A DNA stretch of 43,544 nucleotides from Oceanotoga teriensis (GTDB taxonomy: Bacteria; Thermotogota; Thermotogae; Petrotogales; Petrotogaceae). A program made the position numbers and the translations under genes. Every line of letters starts with the position of its first letter. Position 1 is the first letter of the stretch. The notes below the pieces were generated by a model, which made no database searches, was not told the DNA's origin, and was given only the letters and a program-made list of their open reading frames with translations. Positions 21,353-23,772 of this stretch are shown piece by piece. The DNA is taken from NCBI RefSeq assembly GCF_003148465.1, contig NZ_QGGI01000019.1:1-43544 (forward strand), given 5' to 3'.

Positions 21353-22857
21353 TTAATCATTTATATAATAATTAATAAAATCTTCAAAATTACCCAAAAC
21401 AATATCTAACTAACCCAAAGAATTATACACAAAATGGTCAAAATGTGGTAATCCGCTGAAAGCTGTCTATCCCACTACCTAACCTGCTATGTATACTATC
21501 ATTGTGTTTACATTCATCATCACATTCCATGCTCTTCCTATATTATGGGGTATTGATGTATCTGTTATCATGTTTGGTACTACTGTTGTTATGAAACCAT
21601 CTTCATTATCATATTTTGTTATTACTTGCTATACTTCTATTTTTCCAATCATATTTGTATATCTATCCTATATATCTAAATTATCATATGGTTTTATTTT
21701 TGTATTTCCTATTATTGTTATATTTCCATCATAGTATTCTCTCATATGTTCAGATAATTTATTTGCCTATATTATTTTTGCTACCTAACTTATTCCTGCA
21801 TTATCATCATAATAATCTCTCTTTTTATTTGCATATTGGGGTATATCATTGTCTAAATACTATTTAGTACATACATATTCTTCTCCTTGTATATTTATTA
21901 TGTTTTGTGATTTACTATTGAATAGATTATACATCAGTCCATTGTTGTTGTATTTTACTTTCTTTCCATATACGTTTATTTGTGTCTATATTTTGTTTAT
22001 GTTTGTTGTTATATTGTTCTATATTATATGTAGTCTATCATTTACAAGATATGTCTTTTGGAATGGTTCTATATCTCTCATTTGTTCATTTATTTCATAT
22101 CCTTTGTATTTTAATTCATTTAAATATGTGTTTATATTTCCTATATAGTTATTTAAGTATCTTTCATGTTCTTGTTTTATTGTTTTTATTTTATTTGTGT
22201 ATTTTTCCTAATATTCTTTTATATGTTTGAATATTTCTATTTTTATTCCAAATAAATAGTTTATTATATCTATATCATAATATTTTATTAGTTGTTTATA
22301 CGTTTCTAATAATGTTATTATATTTTCTTTATAATTTTCTTTGTTTATTTCTTTTTTTGTTAGTCTATATATTATATTGTTGCATATATGGTATGTCTAT
22401 TCATAGTCTTTACTTGTGTACACTCTTTCTATTTTTTCTTTTCTTAATTTGTTTAGATGATTCTAAAATAGTCTTTCTAATTCGTACATACTTATTTCTT
22501 TTAAATTATACTTGTATTTTTCAAATTCATATTTTGTTTCATCTTCATTCACTAATAGTATATTTCCTATATTTACTTTGTCTCTGTTTGCATATAGTAT
22601 TTTTAATATGTTTGTCCTAATATTGGTTCATATGGATTATTTATTATTTCTTTTCCAGAGTAAAAGAATATATTTTTGAAGAAATTGTTCTCTTTTTCTT
22701 TTTTTTCATAGTACTAACTCGGATAGTACATGTTTGTCGCTAATTCCATGTATTCTCCTTTTTGTTTGTAGTTTTTTATATTGAATACATAGTCTTTATC
22801 TGATGTGTATGAGGTTATACATATTATATTTCCATATATTTCTATATGATTTCTAAA
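21353..22857 (-). pseudogene. Phage-like structural gene readable only with UAG as a sense codon (amber-recoded), frameshifted near its 5' end
   Basis: Under the standard code nothing long is open here. With UAG as sense, one frame runs 424 codons (22627 to 21356) to TAA 21355-21353. TAG lies at low coordinates 21410, 21467, 21479, 21629, 21668, 21767, 21785, 21860, 21986, 22019, 22208, 22397 and 22463, with no TAA or TGA. Nine CAA and no CAG are present, as if TAG had replaced CAG. The product is not low-complexity: a central helical region (KYTNKIKTIKQEHERYLN) and a C-terminal domain with KIKPYDNLDI, DGFITTVVPNMITD and TAFSGLPHFDHFVYN. The KPYD...EDGFITTVVP pattern resembles phage baseplate/virion proteins. 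A second frame, 84 codons (22857-22606, TAG at 22714), continues it upstream after a one-base shift near 22618. Family assignment is tentative; the recoding pattern is directly visible. Confidence 0.75.
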
Positions 22858-23104: not shown

Positions 23105-23389
23105 ATGGATTTAATAAAACCAAGAAAAAGAGTTCTCGACTTGTCAAATATTGATATTTCAAATAAAGAATGGCTTTATTTAATCAAGAATGATACAAGA
23201 CATTCTTTGAGTATTGAAGGTATTGTTTCTAATGAAAAGCAATTGAAGGATATTATTAAAGGTAATTATGATGACGATGACGAAATTTTAAATTATTTTT
23301 CCACTGCAAAGAGCATGTATAGTTATGCTATAGAATTGTACAAAGACAAAGAATTTGTTTTGTCAAAAGCTACGTTGAGACATAAATAA
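23105..23389 (+). pseudogene. Truncated Fic-family N-terminal fragment
   Basis: 94 residues. NDTRHSLSIEGIVSNEKQLKD contains S34-x3-E38-G39, matching the inhibitory-helix motif (S/T)xxxE(G/N) of class II Fic AMP-transferases, and the following helices (EILNYFSTAKSMYSYAIEL, SKATLRH) fit the region just before the Fic core. The catalytic HPFx(D/E)GNGR motif is absent: the frame stops at TAA right after LRHK, and no frame downstream supplies it. RBS GAGGTG at 23095 is good, so the fragment could still be made. It diverges from the amber-rich frame and has no TAG codon. Confidence 0.5.
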
Positions 23390-23403
23390 AAAACGAAAAT
23401 CTT

Positions 23404-23607
23404 TTGTATAAAACAAAATTTGAAGTTAAGATTAACTTTATTACTAAAAGAACTACAAAAAAATATGATAATTCTATTTTATTGGGTATAAAAATTTCTC
23501 CAGCTTTTTATAATAAAATTTCGAATGATTATAATTTTAAAGTTATTGTTGCTAAAGATCAGAAAGATATTTTGAGATTGATTAAAATGGGTTTTACAGA
23601 GTTATGA
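23404..23607 (+). CDS. Short ORF of unknown function, possibly the tail of a broken gene
   Basis: The frame is open from 23386 and ends TGA 23605-23607, one base before the right repeat arm. A TTG at 23404 is the only candidate start inside it, without a ribosome binding site. The 67-residue product (KKYDNSILLGIKISPAFYNK, DYNFKVIVAKDQKDILRL) looks protein-like, not random, and may be the 3' end of a gene whose 5' part was lost; it is in another frame from the Fic-like fragment and does not look like a Fic core. Confidence 0.35.
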   Translation: MYKTKFEVKINFITKRTTKKYDNSILLGIKISPAFYNKISNDYNFKVIVAKDQKDILRLIKMGFTEL

Positions 23608-23608
23608 C

Positions 23609-23691
23609 AAATGATTAAAGTTTGAAAGAAGATGAATAAAAATCATCTTCTTTTTTTAAATTAAAAATGATATAATCAACAAAGTAAATAT
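23609..23691. repeat. Right arm of the 83-bp inverted repeat
   Basis: Inverted copy of 21280-21362 (81/83). On the plus strand it carries the same terminator followed by TGATATAAT (23668-23676). Here the promoter-like element points out of the segment toward the 3' end of the ABC operon, antisense to it; no plus-strand gene follows. Confidence 0.95.
23625..23657 (+). terminator. Terminator in the right repeat arm
   Basis: The 11-bp stem 23625-23635 / 23643-23653 with seven T residues, identical to the left-arm copy, here ending the plus-strand transcript of the Fic-like fragment. Confidence 0.85.
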
Positions 23692-23700
23692 AATAAATAT

Positions 23701-23751
23701 ACCTCCAAAGCAGTTTTGTAATTTTTATTAATTACGGTCTACTTTGGAGGT
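23701..23751. repeat. Long-stem hairpin between the right arm and the ABC operon
   Basis: ACCTCCAAAGCAG (23701-23713) pairs with CTACTTTGGAGGT (23739-23751) at 12 of 13 positions, enclosing an inner GTAAT/ATTAC stem (23718-23722 / 23731-23735). There is no clean T run on either strand, so it is not a textbook terminator, though it lies 22 nt past the ABC stop. It may be a small inverted-repeat remnant. Confidence 0.6.
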
Positions 23752-23772
23752 CATATCATTAACAAACAGTTT

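Follow-up and report, generated by a model that had tools for sequence, protein, structure and literature searches.

Genomic Context of the Locus

The window analyzed here, meaning the whole stretch of 43,544 nucleotides, comes from Oceanotoga teriensis, and the suggestion of an earlier sequence-only reading that it was part of a Thermotogota-like chromosome was thus correct. The host is a cultured isolate and not a metagenome bin, a heat-loving bacterium of oil reservoirs, and the O. teriensis DSM 24906 assembly comprises 45 contigs with an N50 of 95,346, 2,792,290 bp in total, 25.9% GC and 43 tRNAs (PMC11326445). Between ABC-transporter genes in this window lies a decayed stretch, adjoining a fic-like pseudogene, that carries on its minus strand a long reading frame interrupted by TAG codons and by no other stop (Table 1). 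The neighboring genes that were tested are bacterial (ABC transporters, a periplasmic binding protein and a PTS component), and the integrase, capsid, terminase and tail genes that would stand alongside in an intact prophage were not found. PHASTEST, applied to a sister strain of the species, reported no prophage (PMC11326445). An 88-bp inverted repeat brackets both the TAG-rich frame and the fic-like pseudogene; the outer contexts of its arms differ, and we do not claim a transposon on this basis. Neither an integrase nor an insertion sequence nor a CRISPR structure that would account for the capture of foreign DNA was seen at the locus.

Several other features were recorded in the surroundings. 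The fic-like gene is broken, retaining 94 N-terminal and 67 C-terminal codons with some 290 residues deleted from the middle, and a homologue of about 440 residues is still intact in another genome of this family. A palindrome, ACCTCCAAAG...CTTTGGAGGT, is a conserved repeat of MITE- or REP-like character, with copies 89-94% identical on another contig of the same genome (C3) and in two further genera belonging to the family; it had no match in Rfam. A 204-residue ORF adjoining the TAG-rich frame had no match in Pfam, and the 102 other Thermotogota genomes contained no relative of it. Elsewhere in the genome, three CRISPR arrays (C13:8069-8559, C6:143168-144120 and C6:152990-153879) have the repeat CTCTAACAATAACAAGAATTGTATTTAAAT in common and hold 32 distinct spacers, none of which gave a protospacer-length match to the TAG-rich frame among the matches listed.

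Table 1. Positions of features at the locus, numbered along the window
Feature	Position	Strand	Remarks
Main relic piece, baseplate hub protein fragment	21464..22627	-	codons 1-388, 12 in-frame TAG
Hub-homologous stretch, ORF residues 152-377	21497..22174	-	HMM, PHROG 20474, hub fold
TAG sites within the homologous stretch	21497..22174	-	residues 203, 214, 256, 281, 287, 320, 333
Upstream piece MELATNMYYPS-TAG-YYEKK...PILGQTY	22630..22851	-	other frame, one TAG, same codon style
End of the open frame (codons 389-424)	21356..21463	-	T-rich codon style, 13th TAG at codon 406
TAA closing the amber-rich frame	21353-21355	-	within inverted-repeat arm 1
Segment with a second genomic copy	21848..21930	-	86% identical to C11:75274-75352, TAG kept
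Inverted repeat arm 1, 88 bp, 97% identity	21275..21362		terminator and promoter-like -10
Inverted repeat arm 2, 88 bp, 97% identity	23609..23696		terminator and promoter-like -10
Broken fic-like gene	23105-23607	+
Palindromic repeat	23690-23766
ORF of 204 residues	20647-21261	-

The Amber-Rich Frame and Chance Controls

The frame running from 22627 to 21356 on the minus strand has 424 codons, among them 13 in-frame TAG, and neither TAA nor TGA; our recount agrees with the figures first given for it. The remaining two minus-strand frames carry TAA, TAG and TGA in numbers of 43/20/10 and 18/5/22. Stop-codon statistics in shuffled sequence, proposed together with the original observation, bear it out: in 3000 first-order Markov shuffles of the region, TAA- and TGA-free runs typically contained 2-3 TAG and at most 8. 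The frame is also the top one of its kind in a survey of the host's own genome, which covered 880,445 bases read as stretches (about a third of the 2.79-Mb, 45-contig genome) and in which the second-ranking frame had 8 TAG in 148 codons. Other amber-rich intergenic frames that were inspected included a CRISPR array and frames of non-coding appearance. It is thus confirmed that the frame is real and far from chance, with TAG occurring throughout while TAA and TGA are avoided.

Glutamine is encoded in this frame by nine CAA and no CAG, which had been read as a sign that UAG replaces CAG. We drop that argument, given that G-ending codons are avoided throughout the frame (GAA 30 and GAG 0; AAA 36 and AAG 4) and the glutamine counts therefore hold no independent evidence.

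Codon style also helps to delimit the frame. Near codon 389 (position 21463) it turns T-rich, with T at the third position in 19 of 30 codons compared with 5-12 earlier, so the end of the frame, 13th TAG included, may be adjoining host DNA rather than phage. At the opposite end, the codon-style score of the upstream piece (21.7 bits) exceeds that of all 1000 shuffles (maximum 17.2 bits), which points to a frameshift near 22627. This piece showed no detectable protein homology; as a candidate hub homologue it gave a suggestive alignment, but its profile score was no better than that of shuffles, leaving codon style as its one support.

Homology to Phage Baseplate Hub Proteins

When TAG was translated as sense, the frame matched PHROG 20474 (E = 4e-13), and tblastn returned tail or baseplate proteins of Moorella phage MTATph1 and Bacillus phage vB_BauM_KLEB27-3. 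The KLEB27-3 match is a baseplate protein; the MTATph1 match is a large protein labelled 'endolysin,' which itself has a match in the baseplate hub protein of Acinetobacter phage ME3. An HMM built from 38 phage relatives, with the query left out, matched the frame with X placed at every TAG (E = 2.9e-27), over residues 152-377 and with seven TAG sites inside the match. Residues 1-150 had no significant homology to the profile of these 38 hub relatives. Relatives were gathered by alignment-led scans of IMG/VR, which gave 8 and then 42 loci, and from GTDB genomes, which gave 6; their hub genes encode for the most part 1400-3100 residues and lie on contigs of up to 264 kb. An IMG/VR scan with the single protein had found no relative, and a DNA search of phage and plasmid records with the relic found no match.

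Structure prediction points in the same direction. The AlphaFold2 model has a mean pLDDT of 56 but comes close to 90 in the blocks 191-210 and 301-350, and its top Foldseek matches in PDB and BFVD are hub and tail proteins (3d37, E = 1e-6; Mu baseplate, E = 3e-5). Over model residues 188-361, VIA-align matched hub proteins with Z scores of 8-10. To judge from profile match and predicted fold, the relic is a piece of a contractile-tailed phage baseplate hub gene of the Mu gp44/T4 gp27 superfamily. With the phage hubs (MTATph1 CDS0032, KLEB27-3 gp035, ME3 and PHROG 20474) it has in common about 225 homologous residues of the hub domain; with the wider Mu gp44/T4 gp27/VgrG superfamily (1wru, 1k28, 3d37, 3cdd) residues 188-361 share a predicted fold at a sequence identity of merely about 10%. 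The hub genes of MTATph1, KLEB27-3 and ME3 are intact standard-code genes of at least about 2000 residues, whereas the relic is a fragment in which TAG appears as sense. The amber-rich frame is thus a relic, a fragment of a gene of about 2000 residues, frameshifted near 22627. Neither a full-length hub gene nor a tail module is present, the locus being truncated and no adjoining phage genes having been found; it holds a hub-gene fragment and no working hub.

In the profile alignment, phage homology continues straight through the TAG sites. This upholds the main proposal of the sequence-only reading, that the frame is a relic of a phage reading UAG as sense. The host itself uses TAG as a stop (it terminates 3 of the 26 genes in the window), and its 43 tRNAs and tmRNA include none with a CUA anticodon, so the amber-rich frame is unreadable in this host and yields no protein product today.

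A Second Relic on Another Contig

A second relic was found on contig C11 (75274-75352), where an 83-bp piece of intergenic DNA, adjoining a terminator and inside host sequence, is 86% identical to window positions 21848-21930 of the first relic (E = 1.4e-18). Read in codons, the copies run AAA TAG TAC TTA GAT AAT and AAA TAG TAT TTA GAC AAT, with the TAG in common. Five of their eight substitutions are synonymous (neutral P = 0.005-0.04, varying with transition bias), which suggests that the two sequences drew apart while still functional in phages and entered the chromosome by separate captures; further differences are a frameshift, the loss of one codon and a change of CAA to TAA. It may even be that at least two related UAG-recoded large myoviruses infected this oil-reservoir Thermotogota lineage and left independent hub-gene fragments, a proposal that we hold tentatively and with slightly more doubt than confidence. 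If true, it would place recoding well beyond animal guts, in a phylum of thermophiles from which few phages are known.

Other candidate traces were set aside. DNA matches of 68-80% on C13 and at other loci reflect low-complexity AT-rich similarity. Recoded phage fragments scattered across the genome were also considered; with hub-neighborhood phage proteins as bait, only the relic in the window was recovered from 880 kb. No copy of the relic was detected in 102 other Thermotogota genomes, in which the weak matches fall in another part of the profile.

The Meaning of UAG in the Source Phage

At the seven aligned TAG columns of the hub profile, relatives carry mostly polar or small residues. Summed log-odds over these columns rank A, N, T, S, K and then Q, which is sixth of 20 at -0.5 bits and within 3.3 bits of the top residue, while Leu, Trp, Pro and Ile lie at about -10 to -12 bits. 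The columns thus tolerate glutamine, as far as such an alignment can tell, without singling it out, and the expectation that homologues would have Q at most of the sites was not borne out. Of the original assignment of UAG to glutamine (code 15), what stands is compatibility at the seven columns, which slightly favor A, N, T, S and K over Q. Glutamine is still the likeliest, if unproven, meaning, and we prefer it because code-15 phages are a precedent, the CAA and CAG counts aside: where suppressor tRNAs of UAG-recoded phages have been typed, they are mostly glutamine tRNAs (PMC10879173). All the relatives (41 new loci of the second IMG/VR scan, the first 8 and the 6 genome loci) are distant and use the standard code, and a comparison of TAG-bearing DNA patterns of the relic with IMG/VR found nothing. 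Given that every relative found uses the standard code, the source phage is unsampled.

Origin of the Relic and Alternative Explanations

We consider it very probable that the relic is a fragment of a hub gene from a UAG-recoded (code-15-type) large myovirus of a Thermotogota host, captured and now decaying. A large contractile-tailed phage would have infected an ancestor of this Oceanotoga, having reassigned UAG, most likely to glutamine, by means of its own CUA suppressor tRNA. By analogy with known recoded phages, the suppressor would act late in infection, during expression of structural genes including the hub (PMC10879173; PMC13037316). About 1.4 kb of phage DNA would then have been captured into the chromosome between ABC-transporter genes, lost its upstream reading frame, and come to lie silent and decaying in the host.

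Among the alternatives, UAG may have been sense in the source phage with a meaning other than glutamine (e.g., Lys, Asn, Ser, Thr, Ala or Tyr). This is unlikely in our view: A, N, T, S and K do score slightly above Q and Tyr lies 2.3 bits below it, but the comparison covers just seven distant columns, with which glutamine is compatible and in which Leu, Trp, Pro and Ile are clearly disfavored, and the typed suppressors cited above are mostly for glutamine. Much less probable still is an assembly chimera that joined foreign phage DNA into the contig. The 45-contig draft and the single copy of the piece would allow for one, but the relic sits in the interior of a 43.5-kb contig, some 21 kb away from each end, and a diverged second piece is found on another contig within host sequence.

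We give each of the remaining explanations next to no credence. An ordinary standard-code phage gene could have acquired its TAG codons by mutation after capture (CAG or AAG to TAG), as a frameshifted and truncated relic is expected to gain stops; neutral decay in this AT-rich sequence, however, gives rise to TAG much less often than to TAA and TGA, against an observed 13 versus 0 and 0, the protein profile is still recognizable, and one TAG is common to the second relic. It is hardly credible that this is a living Oceanotoga gene expressed by programmed amber readthrough. A terminator does follow the frame, which is still fairly intact, but TAG is a stop in a host that has no CUA tRNA, the upstream part is out of frame, the frame covers only a fragment of a hub gene, and the other 102 Thermotogota genomes have no copy. 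As for an artefact of chance or of antisense reading in an AT-rich genome, amber-only frames elsewhere do reach 8 TAG; 13 in 424 codons is nevertheless an outlier, and what the minus strand encodes resembles phage proteins in sequence and in predicted fold, so that the odds of such an artefact are vanishingly small.

Relation to Known Recoded Phages

Code-15 phages (UAG = Gln) include the crAss-like phages, Lak megaphages, phAss-1 and others of animal guts. The recoded myovirus proposed as the source would resemble them in having a structural gene with many in-frame TAG and no TAA or TGA, in a host that uses the standard code. It would differ from the gut phages in its gene family, the hub of MTATph1-, KLEB27-3- and ME3-type large myoviruses, in its Thermotogota host and in its oil-reservoir habitat; here about 1.4 kb survives as a relic, with neither a suppressor tRNA nor a genome-wide code visible. 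Recoded phages are known chiefly from animal guts. A large survey of jumbo phages put the recoded share at 5.75-8.75% for rumen, pig and human gut and at 0-0.65% elsewhere (PMC13037316). In the literature searched, the coverage of which was incomplete, there was no UAG-recoded phage in Thermotogota. UAG-recoded phages are a known kind, and it is the host phylum and habitat that look new.

Such a fossil, in a thermophile that is in culture and uses the standard code, would extend UAG recoding to further hosts and another habitat, link it to a host with a name and supply sequence bait for the living phage. Ordinary gene-calling and prophage-finding programs will probably overlook amber-only fossils. 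The case also shows that amber-only frames in bacterial genomes can be read as fossils of recoded phages.
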